This document shows, in pieces, positions 28,452 through 47,801 of a stretch of DNA of 64,000 bases (the stretch's first letter is position 1; every line of letters starts with the position of its first letter). The stretch spans positions 62,001 to 126,000 of the forward strand of contig CANJCB010000002.1 in assembly GCA_947473305.1 (NCBI GenBank), written 5' to 3'. The position numbers were made by a program, and so were the translations under genes. This DNA comes from Rhodospirillales bacterium. GTDB taxonomy: Bacteria; Pseudomonadota; Alphaproteobacteria; ATCC43930; CGMCC-115725. The notes under the pieces are model-generated. The model was not told the origin of the DNA. It did no database searches and was given only the letters and a program-made list of their open reading frames with translations.

Positions 28452-28859
28452 TTATCTGAGCGCGTTGTTGATCAGATAATCCGCGAAGTCGGCGGGCTTC
28501 AGCTTGAGCTCCGCCCGTTCCGACTCGCCGGCCAAGGCTCTTGTCATCAAGATGTGGTTTTCCACATGTTCCGGTGGAACCCGGAAAATCCCCGTGGCGC
28601 CCTTGAGCTTGGGATAGAGCTTCGGATCGATCATCCGCGTCTTGCGCTGAAGACGCTCGATGATCTCGGCTTCGTCGAGGACTTCGGCCTCGCGCTGCCG
28701 CAGGAGCGCCCAGTCGGTCTCCCCGGCCCAGCCCCCGCCGGCAACCGCCGCCTTTGCCGGCTCTTCGGTCACGCCCAGCTTGAAGAGGTGCTTGCTGACG
28801 CCCACGTCGGAGCCCCATTTCGAGAGGCGCACACTGCGCGCCACGAAGATCGTCGTCAC
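28452..28859 (-). CDS. Conserved alphaproteobacterial protein of unknown function
   Basis: 135 residues from GTG 28859, which overlaps the stop of the upstream methyltransferase gene (GTGA). The N terminus TTIFVARSVRLSKWGSDVG and the C terminus LKLKPADFADYLINNALR look conserved, by recollection of similar hypothetical proteins in Rhodospirillales, but I cannot name a domain. There is no signal peptide or membrane segment, and the middle is rich in charged helices. A longer frame to 29147 runs through the methyltransferase gene and is rejected. It is probably cytosolic and co-translated with the methyltransferase. Confidence 0.7.
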   Translation of the reverse strand: MTTIFVARSVRLSKWGSDVGVSKHLFKLGVTEEPAKAAVAGGGWAGETDWALLRQREAEVLDEAEIIERLQRKTRMIDPKLYPKLKGATGIFRVPPEHVENHILMTRALAGESERAELKLKPADFADYLINNALR

Positions 28860-29347
28860 GGGTTGACCCGATAGAGGTGATAGCGCCCCTCGCGCACGCC
28901 GGGCGGCAAGGGCAAGAGGGTCCAGCCCGGCACGTCCTGGGCCTGGTCGCTGACCACGATCCCGCCGGGCCGCATCACGGGGGCGAGCAAGAGGGCGATC
29001 TCGTTGCTGAGACGCTTCGAGGCCTCGGCCTCCCCGGTGCCCACATCCATATGGGCAAGCGCGGTCTGGCGATGGAAGCGGTCCCAGACCTTGGGCAGGC
29101 TGTCCAACAGATCGCCCAGGAAGAGGTGATCGGCCGCGGGGACGCAATCGGGATGGGCCGCCACGGCCCGCTCGAAGACGAAGATCTCGCGCCGGGGCGC
29201 GATCTCGCGGAGATGGTCGTAGGTGCGGCCGTTGCCGAGCCCCAGTTCCAGCACGGGGCCTTCGACATTGCGCACCAGCTCCATCGCCATGTCGAGACAG
29301 GCGCGCTGCGCCATCATGCGCCTGATGAAACTGTCGAGCCGGCTCAT
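28856..29347 (-). CDS. Small class I SAM-dependent methyltransferase
   Basis: A 163-residue protein with the SAM-binding motif PVLELGLGNGRTYDHL near residues 31-46 and an acidic FERAVAAHP segment after the next strand. LAHMDVGTG lies in the middle and a final strand reads GRYHLYRVNP. It is short for a methyltransferase and has no visible substrate domain. The substrate is unknown. It lies upstream of the unknown gene at 28452, with which it shares a 4-base overlap, and downstream of a cNMP-binding protein, 41 bases away. Confidence 0.78.
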   Translation of the reverse strand: MSRLDSFIRRMMAQRACLDMAMELVRNVEGPVLELGLGNGRTYDHLREIAPRREIFVFERAVAAHPDCVPAADHLFLGDLLDSLPKVWDRFHRQTALAHMDVGTGEAEASKRLSNEIALLLAPVMRPGGIVVSDQAQDVPGWTLLPLPPGVREGRYHLYRVNP

Positions 29348-29388: not shown

Positions 29389-29859
29389 TCAGCTTGCCTT
29401 CTTCAGTCTGTCCACCTCGGTAAGCGCGCTCTGGAGCTTGCTGTTGGTCTGTTCCAACCGATGGGCCAGTTCGCGCATCATCGAGATCGCCATATGCGGG
29501 AACTCGCGCAAAAGCCGGAAGAACAGCTCCTTGGAAATGCGGAGCGTCGTAAGGCGGGTGTTCGCCTTCACCATGGCAGTTCGGGGCACCTCGCAGAGAA
29601 TCCCGATCTCTCCGACGAAATCGTGCTTTCCGAGGGTCGCTACCCTGATCGGGCCGGACGGTCCGCTCACCAGGACGTCAGCCTCCCCCTCGATGATGAT
29701 ATAGGCCGCGTTCGCGGGATCGCCCTGGCTGAACAGCACCTGCTCGGCATCGAAAGAGACCCGCTCGCTGGTGAAAGCCAGCAGTTTGAGCTTTGAAGGT
29801 TCGGTCTCCGCGAAAAGCGGGATGCGACGCAAAAGCTCTACTTCTTCCTGCAGACCCAC
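29389..29859 (-). CDS. Cyclic nucleotide-binding domain protein without effector domain
   Basis: A 156-residue protein consisting of one cNMP-binding fold (residues about 8-125). The segments are RRIPLFAETEPSKLKLLAF, VLFSQGDPANAAYIIIEGEADV and the phosphate-binding cassette FVGEIGILCEVPRTAMVKA, followed by a short coiled-coil-like C helix (MRELAHRLEQTNSKL). The cassette has E and R in the places used for cAMP/cGMP binding. There is no DNA-binding or kinase domain. It precedes, on the same strand, the aberrant ABC protein, 47 bases after that gene's stop. A role as its ligand-dependent regulatory partner is a tempting inference. Confidence 0.88.
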   Translation of the reverse strand: MGLQEEVELLRRIPLFAETEPSKLKLLAFTSERVSFDAEQVLFSQGDPANAAYIIIEGEADVLVSGPSGPIRVATLGKHDFVGEIGILCEVPRTAMVKANTRLTTLRISKELFFRLLREFPHMAISMMRELAHRLEQTNSKLQSALTEVDRLKKAS

Positions 29860-29906: not shown

Positions 29907-32675
29907 TCATTCTGCGGCCAACAGCATCGTCATGGTCGAACCCGGCTTGTCGAGTTCCTCGAAGGAGCCCTGCTCGACGAGCTTGGCGTTGCTCATGACC
30001 ACCACATGATCGAACTGGCGGGCAAGCGCGGTGCGATGCAGCACCCAGATGAGGCCCCGACCAGCGAATTCTTCCTTGATCGACTGCAGGACCTTGGTCT
30101 GGGTCGCCCCATCGAGGGCCGTGGTCGCCTCGTTGAGGATCAGGACATCGGGGCGCTTCAGGATGACCCGTGCCAGCGCGGCCTTCTGACGCTGGGCGGC
30201 GGAGAGCCGGCCGCCGCCGCTGCCGACCCCATATTCGAGACCCGCCTCGATGATCGTCAGGCGCAGGTCGAGCTTGTTGATGACCTCTGCGATCGCGGTC
30301 CTGACCTTCTCTTCGGCGCCGGCCTCGTTATAGGCGATCTTGCCGAAGAGAATGTTGTCTTGAACCGGCGCCGCGGCGTTGTAGCGCTCGATATCGAAGA
30401 AGGCGATGGTGCCCTTCAACTCTTCCGGCAGGTCAGCCGCGAAGACCTTGCGGGCCTCCAGGATCCGGGCCTGCATGGCTTCGTCGATGACGTCGAGACG
30501 ATGGCGCGCCGTGATGATCTTGAACGGCAGGGACAACAGCTTGTTGCGGTCCTCCTTGCTCATGTCGCCATGGCCGCTCTTGGTCAGCCGACCCAGGATC
30601 ACCTGGAATTCCGGCAGATCTTCGGCCTTGATGAAGCTGAACTGCTCGAAGAACTCATGGCCGGGCGGCACGTCGGCGAACATTTCGACCATGGTCTCGG
30701 CGATGGAGATGCCAGCTTTCACCAGATCGTCGGTCAGCCCGACCTTGTCGAGAACCTTCAACACATAGGTATTGTCGGCAAGCCCCTCGGGATCGAAGGC
30801 AGGTCCGACCTGGGTTCCGAACAGCAGGTTTTCGGCCAGCGTCGCATTGTGATTGTACTTGGTGACGTCGTAGCGCTCGATGGCCTTGGTCAGGCCCTTT
30901 TCCTCGAGCACGCCCGAGAGAGCCTTCCGCGCTTCCAGGAGCTGGCTCGTCGCCTCCGGATGCTCCTTGGGATTGAGCATCCCGCGCAGGCCGAAGAGAT
31001 AGACGTCCCCGTCGAAGTCGACCGCCTGCAGGACCGTGAGGATCCGCTCGATGAGCTCCTTCTTATCGTGCACGCCGGCAGCGGCGTAATCGATCCAATC
31101 CGCCTCGATGTCCAGCGCGAGGTTGCCGGACCTGAAGGTCTCGGCCAGCGTCGCGTGACGCTTCTTCGCCCGGATGGCTTCGTAATGCGCCGGGGTCACA
31201 GGTCGGAAACGCAGCGAGCTTTCGAGATTTTCCCGGAGCGTCGCATTGAACAGGAAAGGCTGGCTGGAGACATAGCCCATTCGCCGGCCCAGGACGGCCG
31301 TGGGAAGCGTCGCGATATCCTGCCCGCCGATCAGCACGCGGCCGCTCGTCGCGGGCAGCAGGCGCGACATCACCTGGGCGAGTTCCTGCTTGCCGCTGCT
31401 GCTCTGACCGACAATGGCGATATGCTTATCGATCGGCAGATTGGCGCTCACGCTGTCGACGATCTTCAGGCGCTCGTCTTCGGCCAAGGTGACGTTCGCG
31501 AGCGTCATTTCGCCGGTCAAGGGGGCATCCTGGTCCGGCTGCTCGTGGATGAGCCGGCCGTCCATCATGCCTTCCGGCTGGAACTGTTCGACGACCTGCT
31601 CGTACTTGATCCGGGCGTCTTCCTTGATCTGGTAGAAGTTCAGGAGCTCGTTCCAGGGAGAGGCCAGGTCCTTATAGGCGGCGAGCACGGCAACCAGGGC
31701 GCCGAAGCTCAGCGTGCCTTCCATCACCAGATAGCCGCCGATCGAGAAGAAGAAGAAGGGTGTCAGCTGGGCGATGAAGTTGTTGACGAACTTCGTGAAG
31801 AACTTCCGCTGGAAGATCTCGAACCTGAGCTCGTAGATCAGCCCCAGCACATGGGAGAACTGAGCGAGCTGCAGCCGGGCGCCGTCATTGGCGTGAAGAT
31901 CGGAGACGCCGGAGATCGATTCGCTGACCTTGTCGGCGACGCGCCGCACGGTGCGGGTCCGCTGCTTGCCGAGCTGGTTGGTCTTCTTCTGCAGCTTGGG
32001 GATCAGGTAGCCCTGAACCGGATAGAGCGCGATTGCAGCGGCGCCCAGGATCGGGTCCTGGATGAACATGAAGAGCACGATGGTCGCAAGCTGGCCGCCC
32101 TGGAAAAGCGGCAGCACGAGGGCGTCGCCGATGAAGCCGCCGAGGTTTTCCACCTCCGAGGTGATCATCGGGATGATCTCGCCCGGGGAGACCTTGCGGA
32201 AATGATGCAGCGGAAAGCGCAGCAACTGTTCGTAGAGGCAATAGCGCAGGCGGCGCAGCATCCGCTCGCCCAGCCGGCCCTTCAGAACGTTGATATAGAA
32301 TTTGAAACCGCCGTTGACGAAAACCAGTGCCAGGAACATCCCGCAAAGGACGGCAAGATAGGAATAGCGGTTGCCGAATTCCATCCCCAGGAAGTCGGCC
32401 GGGAATTTGGCCGTGGGGCTGATCGCCTTGTTGATGATCGTCTTCGGCAGATCGAGCGAATAATAAAGAAACGGGAAGGAGATAAGAGTGACCACCACCA
32501 CCATGATCTGCTGGGGCAGACTGTTCTTGATGATGAACTTGAAGATCGTCGGCTCGAGGCCGCCTCCCGCATGAGGCGGTATTGCGGGCAGGCCCTCAGC
32601 CGGCGATGCGGGTGATCCGGCGGGTTCGGTGGCTGCCTTTTCGCGCAGCTCGGCGGTGGGAGAAATCGCTTTCAT
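29907..32675 (-). CDS. ABC transporter with a split, degenerate nucleotide-binding domain
   Basis: A 922-residue protein. An exporter-type membrane domain (about residues 40-345) carries several hydrophobic segments. The ATPase domain starts near 385. Walker A is GQSSSGKQE (423-431), with Gln where Ser/Thr is expected. The Q-loop lies near 471 (SSQPFLFNATLRENL). About 290 residues then intervene before LSAAQ (824-828, instead of LSGGQ), LILNEATTALD (Walker B Asp replaced by Asn, Glu kept) and an H-loop His at 880. The insert contains two further segments like the one after the Q-loop: NATLAENLLFG near 610 and PVQDNILFG near 770. The substrate is unknown; glycosyltransferase genes lie divergently upstream. 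Confidence 0.85.
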   Translation of the reverse strand: MKAISPTAELREKAATEPAGSPASPAEGLPAIPPHAGGGLEPTIFKFIIKNSLPQQIMVVVVTLISFPFLYYSLDLPKTIINKAISPTAKFPADFLGMEFGNRYSYLAVLCGMFLALVFVNGGFKFYINVLKGRLGERMLRRLRYCLYEQLLRFPLHHFRKVSPGEIIPMITSEVENLGGFIGDALVLPLFQGGQLATIVLFMFIQDPILGAAAIALYPVQGYLIPKLQKKTNQLGKQRTRTVRRVADKVSESISGVSDLHANDGARLQLAQFSHVLGLIYELRFEIFQRKFFTKFVNNFIAQLTPFFFFSIGGYLVMEGTLSFGALVAVLAAYKDLASPWNELLNFYQIKEDARIKYEQVVEQFQPEGMMDGRLIHEQPDQDAPLTGEMTLANVTLAEDERLKIVDSVSANLPIDKHIAIVGQSSSGKQELAQVMSRLLPATSGRVLIGGQDIATLPTAVLGRRMGYVSSQPFLFNATLRENLESSLRFRPVTPAHYEAIRAKKRHATLAETFRSGNLALDIEADWIDYAAAGVHDKKELIERILTVLQAVDFDGDVYLFGLRGMLNPKEHPEATSQLLEARKALSGVLEEKGLTKAIERYDVTKYNHNATLAENLLFGTQVGPAFDPEGLADNTYVLKVLDKVGLTDDLVKAGISIAETMVEMFADVPPGHEFFEQFSFIKAEDLPEFQVILGRLTKSGHGDMSKEDRNKLLSLPFKIITARHRLDVIDEAMQARILEARKVFAADLPEELKGTIAFFDIERYNAAAPVQDNILFGKIAYNEAGAEEKVRTAIAEVINKLDLRLTIIEAGLEYGVGSGGGRLSAAQRQKAALARVILKRPDVLILNEATTALDGATQTKVLQSIKEEFAGRGLIWVLHRTALARQFDHVVVMSNAKLVEQGSFEELDKPGSTMTMLLAAE

Positions 32676-32737
32676 GAAATGATGATTTTCCGCCTTAAGG
32701 TTCTCGTGCGATACTTTGGAGATGCGTGGGGGAATGT

Positions 32738-33961
32738 ATGAGCCAGCGGCACCATAAGCGCATTCTCATCTACAGCCATGATACGTTCGGGCTGGGACAT
32801 CTGCGTCGCTGCCGGGCCATTGCGCACTCCCTGGTGGACGAGGATAAGGAGCTTTCTGTCCTCATTCTATCCGGATCGCCCATAATTGGCAGCTTTGATT
32901 TTCGCGCTCGCGTGGATTTCGTACGCATTCCGGGTGTCATCAAGCTCCGAAATGGGGAGTACACCTCCCTCAACCTGCATATCGGGATCGAAGAGACCCT
33001 GGAGATGCGGACGTCGATCATCCGGCACACGGCGGATATCTTCGATCCCGACCTCTTCATCGTCGACAAGGAGCCACTGGGATTGCGCGGCGAGGTCCAG
33101 GAAACCCTGGACCTTCTGTCCCAGCGCGGCGTGCCGAATGTGCTGGGCCTGCGCGACGTGATGGACGGGCCCTCGCTCCTGGCGCCGGAGTGGTCGCGCA
33201 AGAAGGTGGTGCCGGCGCTGCGCCGCTATTACGACGACATCTGGGTCTATGGCCTGCCGGAGATCTGCGATCCCCTGGCGGGTATCGCCTTGCCGGAAAG
33301 CGTGCGCAAGCGGATGACCTATACCGGCTACCTGAGGCGCACCGAACCCCAGGAAGTGCCGCATTACACAGGTCTCGACGTGAGCGACGAGCCCTATTTC
33401 CTGGTCACGCCCGGCGGTGGAGGGGACGGCGAGGAATTGATCGACTGGGTGATCTCGGCCTATGAGGCAGATCCGAAAATCCCCCATCGCGCCATTCTCG
33501 TTCTCGGCCCCTTCATGCAGCCGGAGTTGCAAGCCGACTTCATGGCCCGGGCCGCCCGAACCGGCCGGGTCGAGGCGATCACCTTCTCCGCCCGGATCGA
33601 GACCCTGATGGCGCGGGCCGCCGGGATCGTGGCCATGGGCGGCTATAACACCTTCTGCGAGATCCTCTCCTTCGACAAACGCGCGCTGATCGTGCCCCGC
33701 ACGAAGCCAAGGCTCGAGCAGCTGATCCGCGCCGAGCGGGCCCAGGAACTGGGTCTCATGCGCATGCTCGAAGGCGACGAGCCCCGCGATCCCAAGGTCA
33801 TGGCGGCGGCGCTCCGGGCTTTGCCCGACCAGCATCTCCCCTCGGAAGTCACCGTGCCGGGACTGCTGGACGGTCTCCCCAACGTCAACCGCCACGCCCA
33901 GAAGTGGCTTGAGCGCAGCGCCGGCCGATCCTACCGGGTCGCTCTCGCCGCCCGGGGCTAG
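32738..33961 (+). CDS. Predicted glycosyltransferase, COG4671-like (first paralogue)
   Basis: A 407-residue protein with a GT-B type fold. ILIYSHDTFGLGHLRRC at the N terminus and GGYNTFCEILSFDKRALIVPR near residue 310 are the donor-site-like marks of this family, distantly related to MurG/GT28. GGGGDGEEL lies in the middle. Glycosyltransferase activity is predicted only. ATG 32738 is chosen because GGGGGA lies just before it; GTG 32726 and ATG 32734 (another frame) are alternatives. It is divergent from the ABC protein with only 62 bases between, so they may share control. A second paralogue lies at 36965. Confidence 0.75.
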   Translation: MSQRHHKRILIYSHDTFGLGHLRRCRAIAHSLVDEDKELSVLILSGSPIIGSFDFRARVDFVRIPGVIKLRNGEYTSLNLHIGIEETLEMRTSIIRHTADIFDPDLFIVDKEPLGLRGEVQETLDLLSQRGVPNVLGLRDVMDGPSLLAPEWSRKKVVPALRRYYDDIWVYGLPEICDPLAGIALPESVRKRMTYTGYLRRTEPQEVPHYTGLDVSDEPYFLVTPGGGGDGEELIDWVISAYEADPKIPHRAILVLGPFMQPELQADFMARAARTGRVEAITFSARIETLMARAAGIVAMGGYNTFCEILSFDKRALIVPRTKPRLEQLIRAERAQELGLMRMLEGDEPRDPKVMAAALRALPDQHLPSEVTVPGLLDGLPNVNRHAQKWLERSAGRSYRVALAARG

Positions 33962-33973
33962 CCGAAGGCGATC

Positions 33974-35305
33974 ATGCCCGACAGTGCGCGATCGGCCAGT
34001 GCGCAATCGGCCAGTGCGCGATCGGATAATGCGCGATCAAACGGCGCGCCCGCTCGCGTCGCCTTCGTGGTGAAGGGCTATCCGAGGCTGTCGGAAACCT
34101 TCATCGCCCAGGAAATCCGGGCGCTCGAAGAACGTGGCCTCCCGATCGAGATCTTTTCCCTGCGCCGGCCGACCGACCGCCACATCCATCCGGTCCATCG
34201 GGAAATACGCGCGCCGGTGCGCTATCTGCCGGAATATCTCCACGAGGCGCCGCTGCGGGTTTGGCGTGCCTGGCGGGCGCTGCGCCGCAGCCCCGCCTAT
34301 CCGGAAGCCCGCCATCTGTGGCTTGCCGATCTCCGGCGGGATTTCACGCGCAACCGGATCCGGCGGTTCGGGCAGGCGCTCGTCCTGGCCCATGAGTTGG
34401 GGCCGGAGGTCCGCTGGATCCATGCCCATTTCCTCCACACACCCGCCTCGGTCGCCCGCTATGCCGCCGCCCTGCTGGAAATCGGCTGGACCGTTTCGGC
34501 CCATGCGAAGGACATCTGGACCTCGCCCGACTGGGAGAAGCGCGAGAAGCTCGCTTCCTGCCGCTGGCTCGTCACCTGCACCGCCAGCGGCGGCGCGCAT
34601 CTGGCGGGTCTGGCCCCCGATCCTTCCCGGGTGGAAGTTGTCTATCACGGCCTCGACGCCCGCCGCTTTCCGGCCTTCGAGGAGCCTAGGCCGCCCCGTG
34701 ACGGCAGCGATGCCCAGACGCCGGTCCGCCTGCTCTCGGTCGGCCGCGCCGTTCCGAAAAAGGGCTATGAGGATCTTCTCGCCGCCCTCGCGCAGCTTCC
34801 GCCCGGGCTTCATTGGCATCTGACCCACATCGGGGGCGGCGCGCTGCTGAACAGCCTCAAAGACCAGGCCGCCCGCCTGGGAATCGCCGAGCGGATCGAA
34901 TGGTGCGGCGCCCGCCCGCAGGAGGATGTGCTGGCGGCTTATCGCTGGGCCGATCTCTTCGTGCTGGCGAGCCGCATCGCCGGGGACGGGGACCGGGACG
35001 GGCTCCCCAATGTGCTGATGGAAGCGCAGAGCCAAAAGCTCGCCTGCATCGCCACCCGGGTCTCCGCCATCCCGGAACTGATCGATGACGGGAGGACCGG
35101 AATGCTGGTTCCCCCAGCCGATCCCGCCGCCTTGGCCCAGGCCCTGGCGGAATTGATCTCCTCACCCGCCCGCCGCCAAGTGCTCGGCGACGCCGGCGAG
35201 GCGCGGGTGCGGTCGGCCTTCACCCTAGACGCGGGCATCGACCGGCTCGCCGCCAAATTCGACCTGCCGGCCCTGGCATGCGCATCGCCTTCTACGCACC
35301 CCTGA
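33974..35305 (+). CDS. GT4-family glycosyltransferase with repeat-derived N terminus
   Basis: A 443-residue GT-B glycosyltransferase. The N-terminal domain starts at VAFVVKGYPRLSETFIAQEI (near residue 29). The C-terminal donor domain has SVGRAVPKKGYEDLLAAL and SRIAGDGDRDGLPNVLMEAQ, with the ExxxxxxxE-like retaining GT4 pattern (PNVLMEAQSQ), and CIATRVSAIPELIDDGRTG. The first 24 residues (SARSASAQSASARSDNARS) come from four 15-base tandem repeats. Substrates are unknown. It is preceded by the COG4671-like gene 12 bases away and overlaps the next glycosyltransferase gene by 28 bases. Confidence 0.85.
   Translation: MPDSARSASAQSASARSDNARSNGAPARVAFVVKGYPRLSETFIAQEIRALEERGLPIEIFSLRRPTDRHIHPVHREIRAPVRYLPEYLHEAPLRVWRAWRALRRSPAYPEARHLWLADLRRDFTRNRIRRFGQALVLAHELGPEVRWIHAHFLHTPASVARYAAALLEIGWTVSAHAKDIWTSPDWEKREKLASCRWLVTCTASGGAHLAGLAPDPSRVEVVYHGLDARRFPAFEEPRPPRDGSDAQTPVRLLSVGRAVPKKGYEDLLAALAQLPPGLHWHLTHIGGGALLNSLKDQAARLGIAERIEWCGARPQEDVLAAYRWADLFVLASRIAGDGDRDGLPNVLMEAQSQKLACIATRVSAIPELIDDGRTGMLVPPADPAALAQALAELISSPARRQVLGDAGEARVRSAFTLDAGIDRLAAKFDLPALACASPSTHP
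33983..34042 (+). repeat. Four tandem 15-base repeats inside the glycosyltransferase gene
   Basis: Units AGTGCGCGATCGGCC (33983-33997), a one-mismatch copy (33998-34012), then 34013-34027 and 34028-34042 with growing divergence. Each is five codons, so copy-number changes would keep the frame. Confidence 0.85.
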
Positions 35306-36384
35306 AACCCCCCGATCATCCGGTGCCCTCGGGCGACCGGCGGATGGGACGATTGCTGGGCGCGGCGCTGGCCGCCGCCGGACACGAGACGGTTGTGGCC
35401 TCGCGCTTCCGCAGCCGCGACGGTGACGGCGATCTTCTCCGGCAGCAGCGGCTGCGCGCGACCGGCGAGGCGCTCGCCCGACGCTTCCTGGAAGGCGTTC
35501 GCCGCGAGCCGGCGCGCCGACCCGATCTCTGGTTCACCTATCATCTCTATTACAAGGCGCCAGACTGGATCGGGCCGCTCGTCGCCGATGCGCTCGGCAT
35601 CCCCTATGTGGTCGCCGAAGCCTCTGTGGCGGGAAAGCGCCGGGGAAGCCCCTGGTCGATGGGTCATGACGCCGTAGTCCGGGCGCTCGCCCGCGCCGAT
35701 GCGGTTATCGGCCTCAATCCGGCGGATCGCGAGGGCGTGCTGCCCCACCTGCGCGATCCCTGGCGCTGGGTCCCCATGAAGCCCTTTCTCGATCTGGGAC
35801 CCTACCGCGACCTTGACCGTTCCATAGGCGATGTTCCCGTCCTCATCGCGCCGGCCATGATGCGGCCCGGCGACAAGCTTGCCTCCTACCGGGTGCTGGG
35901 CGAGGCGCTGAGCCGGCTGCTGGATCGTCCCTGGCGCCTGGTGGTCGCGGGCGATGGCCCCGCGCGGGCGGAAGTCGAGACGATCCTCGCCCCCTGCGCC
36001 AGCCGCACCACTTGGCTGGGCCAGGTTTCAGAGGCGCAGCTTGCCCAAGCCCTGGCCGCATCGGATATCTGTGTCTGGCCGGCGATTAACGAAGCCTGGG
36101 GCATGGCGCTGCTGGAGGCCCAGGCGGCGGGCGTCCCCGTCGTCGCCGGCGCGACCGGGGGCGTCGGCGAGGTCGTGGCCCAGGGCGTCAGCGGCCTTTT
36201 GACCCCGGTTGGTGACGCCGGACGTTTCGCCGAGGCGGTCGCAACCCTCCTCGGCGATGCCGGGCGACGCAAAGCCTATGGCATGGCGGCAAAACGCCTG
36301 ACCGAGGAAAATCACGGCATCGAAGCCGCCTCCCGGCAGCTCGACGCGACACTCTCGGCCCTTCTGCCCGCGCGCACGGCATGA
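35278..36384 (+). CDS. GT4-family glycosyltransferase
   Basis: A 368-residue GT-B protein starting at ATG 35278 inside the previous gene (28-base overlap). MRIAFYAPLKPPDHPVPSGD at the N terminus is a common start for GT4 enzymes in alphaproteobacterial glycan loci. The donor domain has VVAGDGPARAEVE, DICVWPAINEAWGMALLEAQAAGVPVVA and GVSGLLTPVGDA. The EAWGMALLEAQ segment carries the ExxxxxxxE retaining signature. The sugar and acceptor are unknown. It overlaps the histidine phosphatase by 4 bases (ATGA), and the set looks like one operon from 32738 to 38119. Confidence 0.85.
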   Translation: MRIAFYAPLKPPDHPVPSGDRRMGRLLGAALAAAGHETVVASRFRSRDGDGDLLRQQRLRATGEALARRFLEGVRREPARRPDLWFTYHLYYKAPDWIGPLVADALGIPYVVAEASVAGKRRGSPWSMGHDAVVRALARADAVIGLNPADREGVLPHLRDPWRWVPMKPFLDLGPYRDLDRSIGDVPVLIAPAMMRPGDKLASYRVLGEALSRLLDRPWRLVVAGDGPARAEVETILAPCASRTTWLGQVSEAQLAQALAASDICVWPAINEAWGMALLEAQAAGVPVVAGATGGVGEVVAQGVSGLLTPVGDAGRFAEAVATLLGDAGRRKAYGMAAKRLTEENHGIEAASRQLDATLSALLPARTA

Positions 36385-36968
36385 CGAGCTTCGCCCTCCT
36401 GCGCCACGGCCCGACGGCCTGGTCGCGCGCCGGCCGCCTGCAGGGTCTGCGCGACGAACCGCTGGATGAAGGCGGCCGGAAACAGGTCGCGAGCTGGCGC
36501 GTGCCGGCGGAACTAGACGGCTTTGCCTGGATATCGAGCCCCTTGGCCCGCGCCCGTGAAACCGCCGGCCTCCTGGGTGTCGAGGCCAGCCCCGAGCCTC
36601 TCTTGACCGAGATGGACTGGGGCGACTGGGAAGGCCGCCGGCTTGCCGAGATCGCCGCCGCCGAGGGACAGGCCCTCCAAGCCCGCGAGTCCCTGGGCCT
36701 CGATTTCCGGGCGCCCGGCGGCGAAAGCCCCCGCGAGGTGCAGGCCCGGGTCCTGCCGCTCCTCGCGCGCATCGCGAAGGAGGGCAAACCCGTCGCCGCC
36801 GTCTGTCATAAGGGCGTGATCCGGGCGGTTCTCGCCCTCGCCTGCGACTGGCCGATGGTGGGAAAGCCGCCGGTGAAGCTCTCCTGGACCGCGGCGCATC
36901 TTTTTCAACTCGATCCCGACGGCAGGCCTCGGCTCGACCGCCCGAACATCGCCCTGGAGAAACCGTGA
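36381..36968 (+). CDS. Histidine phosphatase superfamily protein
   Basis: A 195-residue protein with the RHG motif LLRHGPTAWSRAGRLQG at the N terminus (catalytic His), SSPLARARETAGLL (second Arg), a catalytic-acid-like EMDWGDWEG and CHKGVIRAVLALA, the second His. This is the phosphoglycerate-mutase-like branch 1 fold. In sugar loci such enzymes can dephosphorylate sugar phosphates, but the substrate is not predictable. It has 4-base overlaps with both neighbours, so it belongs to the glycosyltransferase operon. Confidence 0.87.
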   Translation: MTSFALLRHGPTAWSRAGRLQGLRDEPLDEGGRKQVASWRVPAELDGFAWISSPLARARETAGLLGVEASPEPLLTEMDWGDWEGRRLAEIAAAEGQALQARESLGLDFRAPGGESPREVQARVLPLLARIAKEGKPVAAVCHKGVIRAVLALACDWPMVGKPPVKLSWTAAHLFQLDPDGRPRLDRPNIALEKP

Positions 36969-38119
36969 CGCGCGTGCTTTTTCACGTCCAGCACCTCCTG
37001 GGCATCGGTCATCTCCGCCGGGCGGCGCTGCTGGTGCGGGGAATGCGGGCGGCGGGGCTCGAGGTGACATTTCTCTCCGGGGGCATGCCGGTGCCCGACC
37101 TCGATCTCGCCGGAGCGGAGATCGTTCAGCTTCCGCCCGCGCGATCGCTCGACGTGGGCTTCAAGAGCCTGGTGGACGAGGCTGACAAGCCGCTCGACGA
37201 GGTCTTTCACGCCCGTCGCCGGGAGCAGGTGCTGGCCGCCTTTGCCGCGCTCCGACCCGACGTCGTCCTCATCGAGACCTATCCCTTCGGGCGGCGGGCG
37301 TTCCGGACGGAACTCGACGCGCTCATCGCGGCGGTTCGCGCCACGGCCCAGCCGCCGGCCCTGCTTTGCTCGATCCGGGACATCCTCGTCGCCAAGGCGG
37401 ATCCCAAGCGCAACGCCGGGATCGTCGAGAAGATCATGCGGGATTTCGACGGGGTCCTCGTCCATGGCGACCCCGCTTTCGTGCCGCTGGAGGCGAGCTT
37501 TCCCGCGGCCCGGGAAATCTCGGACAAGCTTTTCTATACGGGATATGTGGCAGAGACCGCGCCGCTCCCCGAAGGAACGGCGGGTTCCGGCGAGGTCATC
37601 GTCTCGGCGGGCGGTGGCGCGGTCGGGGAAGGACTTTTGCGCGCCGCTCTCGCCGCCAAGCCGCGAACCGCGCTCCGCGACAGGACCTGGCGGCTGCTTG
37701 CCGGCCCCAACCTCCCCGATGAGGCCTATGCGGAATTGTCCCAACAGGCGGGACCGGGCGTCGTTATCGAGCGGCATCGGGCGGATTTCCCGGACATGCT
37801 GGCGCGCTGCGCTCTCTCGATCAGCCAGGGCGGCTACAACACGATCCTCGACATCCTGCGCGCCAGGGCCCGCGCGGTGATCGTGCCCTTCGCGGCGGGC
37901 GCCGAAACTGAGCAGACGCTGCGGGCGGAGCTTCTGGCGGAAAAGGGCGTCATCTATCTCGTCGCGGAAACCGATCTCGACCGGCCGGAGCCGGGCGCCG
38001 GGCTGGCACTCGCAATCGAGAAGGCCCTGGCGGCGCCGGTGGCGACCCTCGGCGGCGTCAGGCTGGACGGCGCGGCCCGCAGCGCGGGGCTGATCCGGCG
38101 GTTTTCTAGGGAAACATGA
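36965..38119 (+). CDS. Predicted glycosyltransferase, COG4671-like (second paralogue)
   Basis: 384 residues from GTG 36965, which overlaps the phosphatase stop. RVLFHVQHLLGIGHLRRAALL mirrors the start of the protein at 32738. SQGGYNTILDILRARARAVIVPFAAG mirrors its C-terminal donor-site segment. The central GEVIVSAGGGAVGEGLL stands in for the glycine-rich linker. The two are therefore paralogues, at the start and end of one operon. A glycosyltransferase role is predicted only. The gene converges with a membrane-protein gene and overlaps it by 14 bases. Confidence 0.75.
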   Translation: MTRVLFHVQHLLGIGHLRRAALLVRGMRAAGLEVTFLSGGMPVPDLDLAGAEIVQLPPARSLDVGFKSLVDEADKPLDEVFHARRREQVLAAFAALRPDVVLIETYPFGRRAFRTELDALIAAVRATAQPPALLCSIRDILVAKADPKRNAGIVEKIMRDFDGVLVHGDPAFVPLEASFPAAREISDKLFYTGYVAETAPLPEGTAGSGEVIVSAGGGAVGEGLLRAALAAKPRTALRDRTWRLLAGPNLPDEAYAELSQQAGPGVVIERHRADFPDMLARCALSISQGGYNTILDILRARARAVIVPFAAGAETEQTLRAELLAEKGVIYLVAETDLDRPEPGAGLALAIEKALAAPVATLGGVRLDGAARSAGLIRRFSRET

Positions 38120-39527: not shown

Positions 39528-39613
39528 CCTTTTCCCCGCGTAATGTTTCCCTAAGCGGCATCCTCCCATAGTGCGATTCCGCACAAAGCTCGAACTAAAG
39601 GGTGTCCGTGTTT

Positions 39614-39641
39614 TTGAATTTCAATCATCCCGTTGTATAAC
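39614..39641 (+). promoter_or_regulatory. Candidate promoter for a leaderless deacetylase mRNA
   Basis: TTGAAT (39614-39619) and TATAAC (39636-39641) are separated by 16 bases. The expected start falls at 39647-39649, essentially on ATG 39649, which has no good Shine-Dalgarno sequence. The -10 box sits inside a small inverted repeat (CCGTT-N4-AACGG, 39630-39643). Confidence 0.4.
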
Positions 39642-39648
39642 GGCGGCA

Positions 39649-40440
39649 ATGACACACAAGCCCGTTCACACATCGTCTTTGCTCGCCGGTTGGAATGACT
39701 TGGAGGAAGAGCTCACGGCCTGGGCGGAAGCCGGCCGGATGGCCGACTTCTGGTGGCGGGACGACGACGCGGCGACAAACACGGCAGCGCTGCGACGCCT
39801 GCTCGATCTGGCGGAGGGAACCCCGCTCGCGCTGGCCGCGATCCCCGCCGAAGCCGACGCCAAGCTCGTCTCAGTGCTCGCTCCCTATTCCGAAATCCGC
39901 ATCCTCCAGCACGGCTGGAGCCATGCCAATCACGCGCCTCCGGAAGAAAAGAAATGCGAGCTGGGGCTCCATCGGCCGATGGAAGCGGTCCTGATGGAGC
40001 TTTCGGCAGGCTATGCCCGCCTGATGGCGCTGTTCCGGACGAAGTTCCTGCCCGTTCTCACACCGCCCTGGAACCGGATCGACCGCTCGCTCCTCCCGCT
40101 TCTTCCGACCGTCGGCTTCACCGGCCTCTCGACGGACAAGGCGCGCCCGGCGGCTGAGCCTTACCCGGGCCTGCTCCAGGTCAATGTCCATGCCGATCTC
40201 GTGGATTGGCGCGGCGGGACGGGTTTCGTCGGCGAAGGCCGCGCGCTCGCCCTGATCGTCGGCCATCTGGAAGCCCGCCGCCTCGGCCGCGCGGACGCCG
40301 AAGAGCCGACCGGCATCCTGACCCATCATCTGGTCCAGGATCGGGCGACCCACGACTTCCTCGCCAGGCTCGTTCCGCTGATCCAAAAGCACGCCGCCGC
40401 GCGCTGGCTGGACCTGTCACGGGTATTCCCGCGTTCATGA
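39649..40440 (+). CDS. Polysaccharide deacetylase-like (NodB fold) protein
   Basis: A 263-residue protein. The visible NodB-type elements are ADFWWRDDDA (acidic metal-binding Asp pair), LQHGWSHANHAPP (HxxxH metal motif) and VLTPPWNRIDRSLLPLLP (motif 3 Arg/Pro region). A final helix ends at WLDLSRVF. No signal peptide is seen, so the protein appears cytosolic. It would deacylate a sugar or related amide; it lies near the glycosyltransferase operon. ATG 39649 is preferred over 39571, whose extra residues look unlike protein. It overlaps the next gene by 4 bases. Confidence 0.72.
   Translation: MTHKPVHTSSLLAGWNDLEEELTAWAEAGRMADFWWRDDDAATNTAALRRLLDLAEGTPLALAAIPAEADAKLVSVLAPYSEIRILQHGWSHANHAPPEEKKCELGLHRPMEAVLMELSAGYARLMALFRTKFLPVLTPPWNRIDRSLLPLLPTVGFTGLSTDKARPAAEPYPGLLQVNVHADLVDWRGGTGFVGEGRALALIVGHLEARRLGRADAEEPTGILTHHLVQDRATHDFLARLVPLIQKHAAARWLDLSRVFPRS

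Positions 40441-40924: not shown

Positions 40925-40928
<4 letters not shown>
40437..40928 (+). CDS. Two-helix membrane protein of unknown function
   Basis: A 163-residue protein starting at ATG 40437 (ATGA overlap with the deacetylase). Two hydrophobic segments lie at residues about 14-34 and 37-56. A hydrophilic domain of about 100 residues follows, with short strands and a helix (TDAHIEAQGPFPVRLEWSAL), which could be a PH-like fold. I recognise no family. It overlaps the ATPase gene at 40925 by 4 bases (ATGA), so it may be made together with the peptide transporter. Confidence 0.65.
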
Positions 40929-42807
<1,879 letters not shown>

Positions 42808-42811
<4 letters not shown>

Positions 42812-44721
42812 GACTGATCCTCGCCGCCTTTCTAGCGCTCCTCGGCATCGGCTCGGCCGAGGCCGCCGATCTTCCGACCCTCATCGAAACGCCGAGCCTC
42901 CAGGCGAGCGTCGCTTCGGGAACCTTGCCGCCCGTCGCCAAGCGCATCCCCGAAGAGGTCGACGTCGCGACCTTCGACCAGCCGGGGCAGCCCGGCGGCG
43001 AGCTCAGGCTGCTGATGGCGGGCGCGCGCGACACCCGGATGATGGTGGTCTATGGCTACGCCCGCCTCGTCGGCTTCAACACCAACTACGAGCTGATCCC
43101 GGATATCCTGAAGGCGGTCGATAACCAGGACGGCAAGGTCTTCACCTTCCATCTCCGCCGCGGCCACAAGTGGTCGAGCGGCGAGCCCTTCACCACCGAA
43201 GACTTCCGCTACTGGTTCGAGGACGTGGCGTCCAACCGCCAGCTCTCGCCGAGCGGCCTGCCCGAAGTCCTGATGGTCAACGGCAAGGGACCGAAGTTCG
43301 AGGTCATCGACGCCGAGACGGTCCGCTACAGCTGGGAGCAGCCCAATCCGCGTTTCCTGGCGGCGCTGGCCGGCCCCGATTCCCTCTTTATCTATTCGCC
43401 GTCCCATTACCTGAAGCCGTTCAACGCGAAATACGCCGACAAGCAGAAGCTCGACGATCTGGTGAAGCAGATGGGCGTGCGCAACTGGTCGGCGCTCTAT
43501 ACGCGGCTGGAAAACCAGTACCGCAACGACAATCCCGACCTGCCCACCCTTCAGCCCTGGATGCTGACGACCCGGCCGCCGTCCGAGCGCTTCATCTTCA
43601 AGCGCAATCCCTATTACCACCGAATCGACACTGCCGGCCGGCAGCTGCCCTATATCGACATGGTCTCGCTCTCGATCGCCGATTCCAAGATCATCCCGGC
43701 CAAGACCGGCGCCGGGGAATCCGATCTCCAGGCGCGCTACCTGCGGTTCGACAATTACACCTTCCTGAAGGAAGCCGCCCGCCGCAACGATTTCGCCGTG
43801 CGGCTCTGGCGCACCGCACCCGGCAGCCAGCTTGCGCTTTATCCCAATCTCAACGTCAACGACCCGCAGTGGAAGAAGCTCTTCCGCGATACCCGCTTCC
43901 GCCGCGCGCTGTCGCTGGCGGTCAACCGGCACGAGATCAACCAGGTGATCTATTACGGCCTCGCGGTCGAGGGGCAGAACACGCTCCTGCCGGGCTCGCC
44001 GCTCTATAAGCCGGAATACCGCCAGGCCTGGGCGCAGTTCGATTTGAAGCAGGCCAATGCCCTCCTCGACGAGGTCGGCCTGACGAAGCGGGACAGCGAG
44101 GGCATCCGCCTCCTGCCCGACGGCCAGCCGCTGCAGATCATCATCGAGAACGCCGGCGAATCGACCGAGCAGTCCGACGTGCTGGAGCTGATCCGCGACA
44201 CCTGGCGCGAGGCGGGCATCAAGCTCTTCGCCAAGCCTTCCCAGCTCGACGTCTTCCGCCGCCGCATCTTCTCCGGCGAGACCATGATGGGCATCGACAA
44301 GGGCTATGAGAATGGCCTGCCGATCGCCGACATGCCGCCCTCGGAATTCGCGCCCACCAGCCAGCAGCAATTGCATTGGCCGAAATGGGGCCAGTGGTAC
44401 GAGACCAAGGAGCGCGCGGGCGAGCCCCCGGACCTCCCCGCCGCCAAGGAGCTTCGCAGCCTCTATCTCGACTGGTTCAAAACCGACGATTCCACCCAGC
44501 AGGCCGAGATCTGGCACAAGATGCTGAAGATCCAGGCCGACGAGGTCTTTTCCATCGGGCTCGTCGCGGGCGTCCTCCAGCCCGTGGTGGTCAACAACCG
44601 GCTCCGCAACGTGCCGGTGGAAGGCATCTATAACTGGGATCCGGGCGCGTTCTTCGGCATCTACCATCCCGACCGCTTCTGGTTCGCACCCGCGGAACAG
44701 AAATCCGCGCAAGCCGGCTAA
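42808..44721 (+). CDS. ABC transporter substrate-binding protein, family 5 (YejA-like)
   Basis: A 637-residue periplasmic protein of SBP_bac_5 type. The N terminus (MRLILAAFLALLGIGSAEAAD) is a signal peptide. GHKWSSGEPFTTEDFRYWFED and FRRALSLAVNRHEINQVIYYG are the marks of oligopeptide-binding proteins of the YejA/DppA class. Its long size (over 600) fits the YejA group. ATG 42808 lies in an ATGA overlap with the ATPase gene; a longer frame extends into that gene and is rejected. It is likely to feed the two permeases downstream. The ligand cannot be predicted beyond peptide-like solutes. Confidence 0.92.
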
Positions 44722-44735
44722 GCGAGCATATCAAG

Positions 44736-45734
44736 ATGTTTGGCTATCTCGTCCGTCGCCTCCTGATCATGATCCCGACCCTGATCCTGATCAGCATCAT
44801 CGTCTTCACGATCATCAAGCTGCCGCCGGGGGATTATTTCTCGACGCTCATCGCCGAGCTGCAGAGCCAGGGCGAGGCGGTCGATCTTCAGAAGATCGAA
44901 TTCCTGCGCAGCCACTACGGCTTGGACCGACCGGCCTGGCAGCAATATATCTACTGGGCGCTCGGCCTGCTCCAGGGCGACATGGGCTATTCCTTCCAAT
45001 ACGACCTGCCGGTCTCCAAGATCGTGGGCGAGCGGCTGTTCCTGACCTTCATCGTCTCCTTCTCGACGATCATCTTCACCTGGGTCGTGGCCTTCCCCAT
45101 CGGGGTCTATTCGGCGACGCATCAATATAGCTGGTCGGACCATGCCCTGACACTGCTGGGCTTCCTCGGCCTGGCCACGCCGAATTTCCTGCTAGCCCTG
45201 GTGTTGCTGTATTTCGCCAATGTGACCTTCGGCACCTCGATCGGCGGGCTCATGGATCCGGCCTATATCGACCAGCCCTGGACCTGGGGCAAATTCAGCT
45301 CGGTGCTCCAGCATCTCTGGATCCCGGTGCTGGTGATCGGCGCCTCGGGCACCGCGGGCATGATCCGGCGGTTGCGCGCCAATCTCCTCGACGAGCTTCA
45401 GAAGCAGTATGTGGTCACGGCCCGCGCCAAGGGGCTGCCGCCCTTCCGCGCGCTGATCAAATACCCGCTCCGCATGTCGCTCAATCCCTTCATCTCCGAC
45501 ATCGGGACCTTGCTTCCCCATGTCATCTCGGGCGCCGCCGTCGTGTCGGTGGTGCTCTCCCTGCCGACCACCGGGCCGATGCTGCTGACGGCGCTCAGGA
45601 GCCAGGACATGTATCTCGCGGGCTCCTTCCTCATGTTCCTCGCGACCCTGACGGTGATCGGCGTCTTTGTCTCCGACCTCTTGCTGGCGGTCCTCGATCC
45701 CCGCATCAGGCTGCAGGGAGGAGTAAGCCGATGA
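44736..45734 (+). CDS. Peptide ABC transporter permease, first subunit (YejB/DppB-like)
   Basis: A 332-residue membrane protein. It starts MFGYLVRRLLIMIPTLILISIIVF, the hallmark of DppB/OppB permeases. PPGDYFSTL, LDRPAWQQYIYWALGLLQGDMGYSF and the EAA-type loop VVTARAKGLPPFRALIKYPLRMSL follow. It has about six membrane segments. It starts 14 bases after the binding-protein gene and overlaps the second permease gene by 4 bases. Confidence 0.93.
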   Translation: MFGYLVRRLLIMIPTLILISIIVFTIIKLPPGDYFSTLIAELQSQGEAVDLQKIEFLRSHYGLDRPAWQQYIYWALGLLQGDMGYSFQYDLPVSKIVGERLFLTFIVSFSTIIFTWVVAFPIGVYSATHQYSWSDHALTLLGFLGLATPNFLLALVLLYFANVTFGTSIGGLMDPAYIDQPWTWGKFSSVLQHLWIPVLVIGASGTAGMIRRLRANLLDELQKQYVVTARAKGLPPFRALIKYPLRMSLNPFISDIGTLLPHVISGAAVVSVVLSLPTTGPMLLTALRSQDMYLAGSFLMFLATLTVIGVFVSDLLLAVLDPRIRLQGGVSR

Positions 45735-46900
45735 GCGTCGCCCCGGATAGCCGCGAGCTGCCCCACTACGCCTCGCCCGAGCCTTTCGACCCCTATAGCA
45801 TCGAGGCGATGACCCCGGCGCAGGAGCGCTTCTACCTCGCCTCCCAATGGCGCATGATGTGGTGGAAGCTGAAGCGCCATCGGATCGCGGTCATTTCCGG
45901 CGCCTTCCTCCTGGCGGCCTATGCCTCGATCCTCATCAGCGAATTCCTGGCGCCCTATGCGCTTGCCACCCGCCACACCGATTTCATCTATGCCCCGCCC
46001 CAGGGGATCCATCTCTTCCACGACGGCCATTTCGTCGGGCCTTTCGTCTATGGCTACGATTACCGCCTGGACATGGAGAACCTGCAGCGGGAATACACGC
46101 CGAATCCCACCAAGGTGGAGCCGCTGCGTTTCTTCTGCCATGGCGACCCCTACCATTACATGGGCCTGATCGAGGGCGACGTGCATCTCATCTGCCCCGC
46201 GGCGGGCGGTCATTTCTTCTTCTTCGGCACCGACCGGCTGGGGCGCGACATGCTCTCGCGCATCCTCTATGGGGCGCGTATTTCGCTCACCGTGGGCCTC
46301 ATCGGCATCAGCATCAGCTTCGCCATCGGCCTCACCCTAGGCGGCATCGCCGGCTATTACGGCGGGATCGCCGACACCCTCGTCCAGCGCCTGATCGAGG
46401 TGATCCGCTCCTTCCCGGAATTGCCGCTCTGGATGGCGCTTTCCGCGGTCCTGCCGGTAAGCTGGAGCCCATTGCTGATCTATTTCGGGATCACGCTCAT
46501 CCTGGGCATGCTCGACTGGACGGGCCTCGCCCGCGCGGTGCGATCGAAGCTGCTGGCGCTCCGCGAAGAGGATTTCTGCGTCGCCGCGCGGCTTATGGGG
46601 GCAAGCTCCAGCCGGGTCATCGGCCGGCATCTGCTGCCGAGCTTCATGAGCCATCTCATCGCCTCGGCGACTTTGTCGGTCCCTTCGATGATCCTGGGCG
46701 AGACGGCGCTGTCCTTCCTGGGCCTGGGTCTCCGCCCGCCGATCACCAGCTGGGGCGTGCTCTTGAACGAGGCGCAGAACATCAACGTGGTGGCGCTCTA
46801 CCCCTGGCTCATGCTGCCGGTGGTGCCGGTGATCCTGATCGTGCTCGCCTTCAACTTCTTCGGCGATGGGCTCCGCGACGCGGCCGATCCCTATCGGTAA
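45731..46900 (+). CDS. Peptide ABC transporter permease, second subunit (YejE/DppC-like)
   Basis: A 389-residue membrane protein. The N-terminal DppC-type segment is SQWRMMWWKLKRHRIAVIS, then a hydrophobic stretch (TM1). A large periplasmic loop of about 120 residues (residues about 80-170, with RFFCHGDPYHYMG) precedes HFFFFGTDRLGRDMLSRILYGARIS. The EAA loop is CVAARLMGASSSRVIGRHLLPSFM. A long loop of this kind is also seen in YejE, so it is not odd here. It completes the five-gene set from 40437 to 46900. A hairpin that can terminate in both directions follows. Confidence 0.93.
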   Translation: MSVAPDSRELPHYASPEPFDPYSIEAMTPAQERFYLASQWRMMWWKLKRHRIAVISGAFLLAAYASILISEFLAPYALATRHTDFIYAPPQGIHLFHDGHFVGPFVYGYDYRLDMENLQREYTPNPTKVEPLRFFCHGDPYHYMGLIEGDVHLICPAAGGHFFFFGTDRLGRDMLSRILYGARISLTVGLIGISISFAIGLTLGGIAGYYGGIADTLVQRLIEVIRSFPELPLWMALSAVLPVSWSPLLIYFGITLILGMLDWTGLARAVRSKLLALREEDFCVAARLMGASSSRVIGRHLLPSFMSHLIASATLSVPSMILGETALSFLGLGLRPPITSWGVLLNEAQNINVVALYPWLMLPVVPVILIVLAFNFFGDGLRDAADPYR

Positions 46901-46964: not shown

Positions 46965-47801
46965 TCAGATGTGAAGCTGCATCCCCTCGTGGGCGACGAT
47001 GGTGCCCGGGCGCATTTCCGCGGCCTCGTCGGCGATCCGATCCATGAAGGCGTCGTCATGGGCGGGATCGTGGTGGAAGACCGCCAGCGTCTTCACATGG
47101 GCCGCCTCGGCAAGCCGGCAGCCTTCCTGCCAGGTCGAATGCCCCCAGGTCGCGAACTTCGGATATTCCTCGTCCGTATAGGTGCAGTCGTAGACCATGA
47201 GGTCGGCATGGTCGATCAGCGCCAGCACATTGGGATCGAACTCGCCCTGGCGATGCTCGGTGTCGGTGATATAGGCGATCACCTTGCCGCCGTATTCCAG
47301 CCGATAGCCGGTCGCGCCATTGGGATGGTTCAAGCCCCGCGTATGAAGCGTAATGTCCGGGCGCGGATGCAGCGTCTCGCCGCATTTGAAGTTGTGGAAT
47401 TCGATCGAGGCGCGGAAGACCTCCATGGGCACCGGGAAGAGCGGCGCCATCATCATGTCGCCGAGGACCTCTTCGATCCGATGCTCGGGCAGAAGATGGC
47501 CCGCCCACATCCGGACCTTGCAGCCGGGAATGAAAAGCGGCGCGAAGAAAGGAATCCCCAGCACGTGGTCGAAGTGGGTATGGCTGAAGAAGAGGTCGGT
47601 ATCGAGCGTCGCCCCCTTCGCCGCCAGCGTCTTCCCAAGCGGCCTCAAGCCTGTGCCCGCATCGAAGATCAAGAGGTGTTCGCCGCAGCGCACCTCGATG
47701 CAGGAGGTATTGCCGCCATAACGCACGGTCTCCGAACCTGGGCAGGCGATGCTGCCGCGGACCCCCCAGAAACGGACCGAAATTGCCCCCGCTTGCGACA
47801 A
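46965..47801 (-). CDS. Metallo-beta-lactamase-fold hydrolase
   Basis: A 278-residue protein with the MBL fold. The HxHxDH motif lies in FFSHTHFDHVLGIPFF and a His in LNHPNGATGY. The ITDTEH segment (bridging Asp) and LAVFHHDPAHDD carry the later ligands. The N terminus VRFWGVRGSIACPG resembles phosphodiesterase-type members (PhnP/RNase Z relatives), which hydrolyse cyclic or diester phosphates. The substrate is unknown. It lies downstream of the response regulator gene on the same strand, 103 bases apart, and may be part of its locus. Confidence 0.9.
   Translation of the reverse strand: MSQAGAISVRFWGVRGSIACPGSETVRYGGNTSCIEVRCGEHLLIFDAGTGLRPLGKTLAAKGATLDTDLFFSHTHFDHVLGIPFFAPLFIPGCKVRMWAGHLLPEHRIEEVLGDMMMAPLFPVPMEVFRASIEFHNFKCGETLHPRPDITLHTRGLNHPNGATGYRLEYGGKVIAYITDTEHRQGEFDPNVLALIDHADLMVYDCTYTDEEYPKFATWGHSTWQEGCRLAEAAHVKTLAVFHHDPAHDDAFMDRIADEAAEMRPGTIVAHEGMQLHI

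Follow-up and report, generated by a model that had tools for sequence, protein, structure and literature searches.

What has become of an ABC exporter whose nucleotide-binding domain (NBD) is split by a long insert and whose catalytic motifs have changed, and is such a gene in decay or is it a conserved protein in its own right? The question is raised by one gene in a 64,000-nucleotide stretch of DNA (the window) from a Rhodospirillales bacterium (assembly GCA_947473305.1, contig CANJCB010000002.1, positions 62,001 to 126,000). A sequence-only reading of the window had proposed that an internal duplication lies behind the insert, that Walker A, Walker B and the signature motif are altered, that ATP may be bound yet only poorly hydrolysed, and that the protein may work as a gate or sensor. 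Here we describe the protein, its family and its gene neighborhood, and weigh the possible explanations of its function.

An ABC exporter by descent and fold

The gene, hereafter pseudo-ABC, is an open frame that begins with ATG, encodes 922 amino acids and is present as a single full-length copy in its own genome. Pfam recognizes ABC_membrane (PF00664) at residues 93–331 and ABC_tran (PF00005) as two separate stretches, the better of which covers residues 407–512. The AlphaFold2 model of the whole protein has a mean pLDDT of 82, the NBD core (mostly 85–95) is modelled as an intact fold, and the closest folds in the PDB are type IV ABC exporters. With a PF00664 transmembrane domain (TMD) followed by an ABC ATPase fold, the protein belongs by ancestry and fold to the type IV ABC exporter superfamily, its best NCBIfam match being MsbA_lipidA with 202 bits against a cut-off of 602. 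Its main features are as follows.

29907..32675 (−): pseudo-ABC half-exporter, 922 aa, N-terminal TMD and split degenerate NBD (open reading frame, Pfam, AlphaFold2 model, PDB fold matches)
31560..32555 (−): TMD, residues 41–372 (PF00664 at 93–331; lowest dN/dS within the protein)
31386..31409 (−): Walker A, GQSSSGKQ, residues 423–430; Gln at the Ser/Thr position, where the family mostly has Asp or Glu
30192..30206 (−): signature LSAAQ, residues 824–828, degenerate family-wide
30129..30146 (−): Walker B, VLILNE, residues 844–849; Asn848 in place of Asp, Glu849 kept

All three altered motifs are exactly as the sequence-only reading had given them, and each fails the sequence requirement of its kind: GxxGxGK[ST] for Walker A (GQSSSGKQ), hhhhDE for Walker B (LILNE) and LSGGQ for the signature (LSAAQ). 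The H-loop H880 and the D-loop D855 are both present. What is new here is an ABC exporter, judged by ancestry and fold, without the three sequence motifs that a functional ABC ATPase needs, and not a new category of protein. Where members of the family are annotated, the usual name is “ABC transporter ATP-binding protein,” which is probably misleading, and a keyword search of the literature found no study of the family.

A module in three copies

In the pseudo-ABC protein 339 residues lie between the ENL of the Q-loop segment and the signature, compared with 42, 42, and 47 in three exporters encoded by the same genome, and thus the insert amounts to approximately 295 residues (292–297), close to the 290 first noticed. 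This distance is 339–340 in almost all close relatives. The insert and the repeated segments are located as follows.

31224..31274 (−): Q-loop segment, module copy 1, residues 468–484, YVSSQPFLFNATLRENL (motif positions, profile comparison)
30366..31223 (−): insert, residues 485–770, alpha-helical, length conserved (alignment, model)
30816..30857 (−): core of module copy 2, residues 607–620, YNHNATLAENLLFG (profile–profile comparison)
30342..30383 (−): core of module copy 3, residues 765–778, YNAAAPVQDNILFG, running into the signature motif (copies 2 and 3, E 1e-13)

The copies carry NATLRENL (477–484), NATLAENLLFG (610–620), and PVQDNILFG (770–778), respectively. When segments of the family alignment are compared profile to profile, copies 2 and 3 match with a probability of 98% (E 1e-13, score 74) and copies 1 and 2 with 81% (score 35), and the direct match of copies 1 and 3 is weak (45%); the highest score among 60 column-shuffles was about 10, and reversed controls gave 6–7. 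Each module is made up of a strand, a turn-helix of the form Y/F-x-(2-6)-ENL(L/I)FG and the subsequent helices. In an ordinary NBD these elements are the Q-loop strand and the helical subdomain; here they are found three times in one protein, which supports the internal duplication proposed from the repeated segment. The insert has no match in Pfam; modelled alone it reaches a pLDDT of 82, and a Foldseek search of the PDB with the isolated insert gave no confident match, nothing falling below E 1. A literature search found no description of an NBD of such build.

Spread, motif loss and selection

A search with a profile of the insert alone gave hits in 130 of the 385 genomes sampled across Alphaproteobacteria, mostly once per genome, and in a sample of the phylum (398 genomes) all 31 hits fell within this same class. 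A second pseudo-ABC copy without an adjacent gene for a cyclic-nucleotide-binding (CNB) protein occurs in several genomes of the same family (L030, L032, L033, L034).

The erosion of the catalytic motifs is shared by the whole family. Among 75 non-redundant members, the Ser/Thr position of Walker A is Asp in 25, Glu in 23 and Ser/Thr in only 7, while the Asp position of Walker B is Asn in 48 and Asp in 13. The Glu of Walker B is kept in 37 and the H-loop His in 28; the P-loop Lys is found in 45 (Arg in 21), and the D-loop Asp in 67. Several rhizobial members have Ala at the Lys position. The complete canonical motif set is found in none of 145 members, and the only one to combine K-S with DE (L020) has a broken signature, LSLAL. 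The most divergent lineages (L166–L171) have lost Walker A and retain the insert together with the repeat motifs and a fused CNB domain; therefore ATP binding cannot be general in the family. We also considered a compensating swap at the Mg site, in which a Walker A Asp is paired with a Walker B Asn, and rejected it, as many combinations occur and there is no clean pairing.

Purifying selection acts on the whole pseudo-ABC protein, with dN/dS of 0.06–0.14; for 29 close pairs the medians are 0.064 (TMD), 0.141 and 0.109 (the two NBD halves) and 0.121 (insert). Under this selection the family as a whole has kept both the insert and the altered motifs. Homologues with normal motifs would have pointed to a single decaying copy, as the sequence-only reading had itself allowed, and their absence among the 145 members together with these ratios excludes that explanation.

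A putative cyclic-nucleotide-binding partner

Directly downstream of the pseudo-ABC gene lies a gene for a small protein with one Pfam cNMP_binding domain.

29389..29859 (−): stand-alone CNB protein, 156 aa, putative regulatory partner (PF00027)

This arrangement is the rule. In 151 distinct full-length members whose downstream sequence is long enough for the comparison, the CNB gene is directly downstream in 132, the domain is fused at the C-terminus in 11, and neither is the case in 8, some of which are the second copies mentioned above (L030–L034); CNB coupling, adjacent or fused, is therefore found in 143 of 151. A C-terminal PF00027 domain in all seven long members scanned confirms the fusion. 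Fused members form two deep clades in the midpoint-rooted tree, and an originally fused form may have been split later. The phosphate-binding cassette of the CNB domain has Arg in 134 of 134 sequences and Glu in 126 of 134, as would be expected if the domain can still bind cyclic nucleotide. The genome of the window encodes six class III cyclase domains, a possible source of this ligand. At the locus on Mesorhizobium pWSM1497 (L250), a DUF3095 protein and an adenylate/guanylate cyclase domain protein are encoded near the CNB gene, the latter being a possible local source of cyclic nucleotide.

A polysaccharide-type gene neighborhood

The window contains the following genes around the pseudo-ABC and CNB genes.

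28856..29347 (−): Methyltransf_17 SAM methyltransferase, the gene after CNB (Pfam; homologue in 46 of 66 well-flanked loci)
32726..33961 (+): divergent GT28-like glycosyltransferase, putative orthologue of SMb21265 (Pfam, orthology; PMC10128002)
33974..35305 (+): GT4 glycosyltransferase, EpsE-like (Pfam, NCBIfam, orthology)
35278..36384 (+): GT4 glycosyltransferase, putative orthologue of SMb21252 (Pfam, orthology; PMC10128002)
36381..36968 (+): histidine phosphatase, conserved neighbor (locus comparison)
36965..38119 (+): glycosyltransferase (Glyco_tran_28_C), conserved (Pfam, orthology)
39571..40440 (+): polysaccharide-deacetylase homologue without a Pfam match (similarity to Mesorhizobium A9K65_RS33900)
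40925..46900 (+): peptide-type ABC importer, namely a fused OppDF ATPase, an SBP_bac_5 protein and two permeases (orthologues at rhizobial and Azospirillum loci)
46965..47801 (−): MBL-fold hydrolase (the frame antisense to it matches the region of the MBL gene at the Mesorhizobium locus)

The glycosyltransferase operon starts 50 bp from the pseudo-ABC gene and is divergent from it. Homologues of GT28, GT4a or both lie beside 53 of 66 well-flanked members, for which each flank spans 2.5 kb or more, and are oriented either divergently or co-directionally. Among fused and divergent members, the stretches examined often contain no glycosyltransferase genes. The peptide-type importer at 40925–46900 accompanies this locus in rhizobia, Azospirillum and the window. 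A motif filter for a canonical ABC exporter half found none in 198 loci. Four weak ABC neighbors were considered as canonical heterodimer partners and rejected, for they are or resemble OppDF-type importer ATPases.

The same gene set is found on named rhizobial replicons (Mesorhizobium pWSM1497, Sinorhizobium meliloti pSymB and Rhizobium etli p42e). On pSymB of S. meliloti 1021 the order of the orthologues is GT4b, deacetylase, the MBL region, peptide-type ABC importer, GT28, GT4a, a further glycosyltransferase, pseudo-ABC and CNB, with orthologous glycosyltransferases adjoining the pseudo-ABC and CNB genes. In strain 1021 the pseudo-ABC gene (L256; NC_003078.1, ~841723–844435) reads as two ORFs, and the match is one base longer than in strain 2011, either a sequencing error or a strain difference.

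By this comparison the window locus is orthologous to the pSymB locus that we map to smb21252–smb21271. At the S. meliloti locus the second gene to follow CNB is a LacI gene, and the listing for SMb21272 is a LacI regulator (PMC11387232). Counting seven genes back from it, the GT28 protein would be SMb21265, which is indeed termed a glycosyltransferase family protein (PMC10128002); numbered in this way, from gene order and not from annotation, pseudo-ABC would be SMb21269 and CNB SMb21270. Nine genes between smb21252 and smb21271 have been reported for an uncharacterised surface polysaccharide that is phazolicin-protecting (PPP): they are strongly depleted in Tn-seq under phazolicin, insertions in them lower fitness, mutants of smb21252 and smb21265 are hypersensitive to phazolicin, and the adenylate cyclase gene cyaA was depleted in the same screen (PMC10128002). 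Seven of the nine are induced during Myxococcus predation (PMC10315480). The numbering derived from gene order would place the pseudo-ABC gene within this nine-gene interval, and it may itself be a PPP gene. The literature names the PPP cluster, and we found no paper studying the pseudo-ABC gene. A large neighboring polysaccharide cluster of S. meliloti has its own Wzx1 (PMC5498481), so the pseudo-ABC protein need not be a glycan translocator.

TMD-only relatives

Some relatives, of about 330–460 aa, consist of the TMD only. Full-length ones score 143–336 bits against the TMD profile of the family, compared with 43–53 for ordinary exporters, and in a TMD tree both TMD-only groups cluster with the pseudo-ABC family, apart from ordinary exporters. 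Therefore the TMD of the family evidently persists without any ATPase. One group (L111–L117 and L236; Rhodobacterales and others) has 415–460 aa, and its genes adjoin those for multicopper oxidase (CopA-like) and cupredoxin-like proteins, in many cases together with a two-component system, a copper-resistance context. A relative of 350 aa in the genome of the window itself (L002/L248, G000:C24) lies between genes for a Rieske-type oxygenase and an MFS transporter; in four loci of other genomes, related TMD-only proteins have a pirin-like neighbor.

What the pseudo-ABC protein may do

Our preferred reading, to which we give a little less than an even chance, is that of a non-hydrolysing membrane component, controlled by cyclic nucleotide via the CNB protein, which moves or gates a surface-glycan intermediate. 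Two pseudo-ABC copies would probably make the usual transmembrane pathway. Their ATPase domains keep the fold, lack the residues for normal Mg-ATP hydrolysis, and, enlarged by two extra copies of the Q-loop and helical subdomain, may act as a platform for regulation or docking. The CNB protein, which is a subunit of its own here and a C-terminal fusion in other lineages, would bind cyclic nucleotide and set the conformation of the membrane part. More speculatively, the cargo that the membrane part moves or gates could be a glycan, a lipid-linked intermediate or some further component of a protective surface polysaccharide, with no ATP hydrolysed and with a cargo gradient, coupled synthesis or the proton motive force as the drive. 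The only positive support for a gate comes from the CNB partner, the polysaccharide locus and the NBD-less relatives, all three of which the sequence-only reading had missed and which point to a regulated component of surface-glycan production. A bolder version, which we regard as rather unlikely, is that a widespread exporter lineage abandoned ATP hydrolysis and became a cyclic-nucleotide-controlled channel, scramblase or proton-coupled surface-glycan translocator, the triplicated helical subdomain being the platform on which CNB docks and couples, and some relatives doing without the ATPase domain.

The retention of the P-loop Lys (45/75) and the Walker B Glu (37/75) speaks against the preferred reading and may reflect weak hydrolysis or an ATP-binding switch. 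The main rival is accordingly a regulated exporter that binds ATP and hydrolyses it slowly, where ATP binding, with dimerisation, would bring about a single conformational change, to be reset by the CNB protein or other factors; even with Asp/Glu in Walker A and Asn in Walker B, the Mg site may retain nucleotide. Besides these two residues, the P-loop Arg in 21 of 75, the D-loop Asp (67/75) and the intact modelled NBD core fit with it, as do the degenerate sites of known exporters that still bind ATP and the finding that nucleotide binding alone suffices for translocation by TmrAB (PMC7756269). Because Walker A is lost in L166–L171, Ala stands at the Lys position in several rhizobial members and some relatives are TMD-only, ATP is dispensable in the wider family, and we consider this rival rather unlikely. 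Next comes a pure regulator or scaffold, which would sense cyclic nucleotide via CNB, control the glycosyltransferases or the neighboring peptide-type importer, and transport nothing. The CNB coupling, which could indeed be purely regulatory, and the importer genes conserved in rhizobia, Azospirillum and the window agree with such a role, yet the TMD is the most constrained part of the protein (dN/dS 0.064), and we judge it improbable.

Quite improbable, too, is a degenerate half of a heterodimeric exporter with its canonical half encoded elsewhere, as in TM287/288, TmrAB and TAP. Conserved degenerate sites are common in exporters (PMC7756269), but a canonical half was found in none of the 198 loci, a count that covers the loci and leaves a distant gene possible, and known heterodimers keep the canonical parts in one NBD, whereas in this family the erosion extends to Walker A, the Q-loop, the signature, Walker B and the H-loop alike. 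A decaying ordinary exporter, or an assembly or frame artefact, is hardly credible: motif loss alone would look the same, but an insert of fixed length in 130 of 385 genomes of the class, purifying selection and conserved synteny led us to reject it.

Conserved degenerate ABC sites are known chiefly from heterodimers having one good site. A family this widespread, whose motifs are all eroded, whose NBD is enlarged and whose sister groups include proteins with no NBD, would allow a direct test of the idea that an ABC-exporter fold can do without ATP hydrolysis and be rewired to a cyclic-nucleotide switch. For S. meliloti, the phazolicin-protecting polysaccharide locus would gain a defined membrane component and a regulator.

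Comparison with known systems

The pseudo-ABC protein shares the TMD fold (PF00664), the NBD core fold and the domain order with type IV ABC exporters such as MsbA, TmrAB, PCAT1, and P-glycoprotein. It differs from them in the insert of approximately 295 residues with its module duplication, and its family has lost the Walker A Ser/Thr, the Walker B Asp, the Q-loop Gln, LSGGQ and often the H-loop His. SbmA/BacA (SLiPT) peptide transporters have an ABC-exporter-like TMD, are driven by the proton gradient and lack an NBD. They are a precedent for an NBD-independent TMD but belong to a different family, and the pseudo-ABC protein retains its NBD; the SbmA_BacA/ABC_membrane_2 domain is absent from it, PF00664 and PF00005 being the only Pfam matches. 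In the heterodimeric exporters TAP, TM287/288, TmrAB, and Pdr5, the degeneration of catalytic motifs is likewise conserved and non-random (PMC7756269), whereas pseudo-ABC has no canonical partner half at its locus, all motifs of its one NBD are hit across the family, and the NBD is enlarged. The CNB proteins of bacteriocin/NHLP ABC exporters (TIGR03896) are also tied to an ABC exporter, and the window CNB protein matches this model with E 3.7e-10, below its cut-off; in contrast to those systems, the CNB of the pseudo-ABC family is C-terminal or separate. The closest likeness at the level of the locus is to the S. meliloti PPP cluster, smb21252–smb21271, which has orthologous glycosyltransferases and the pseudo-ABC and CNB genes in common with the window.
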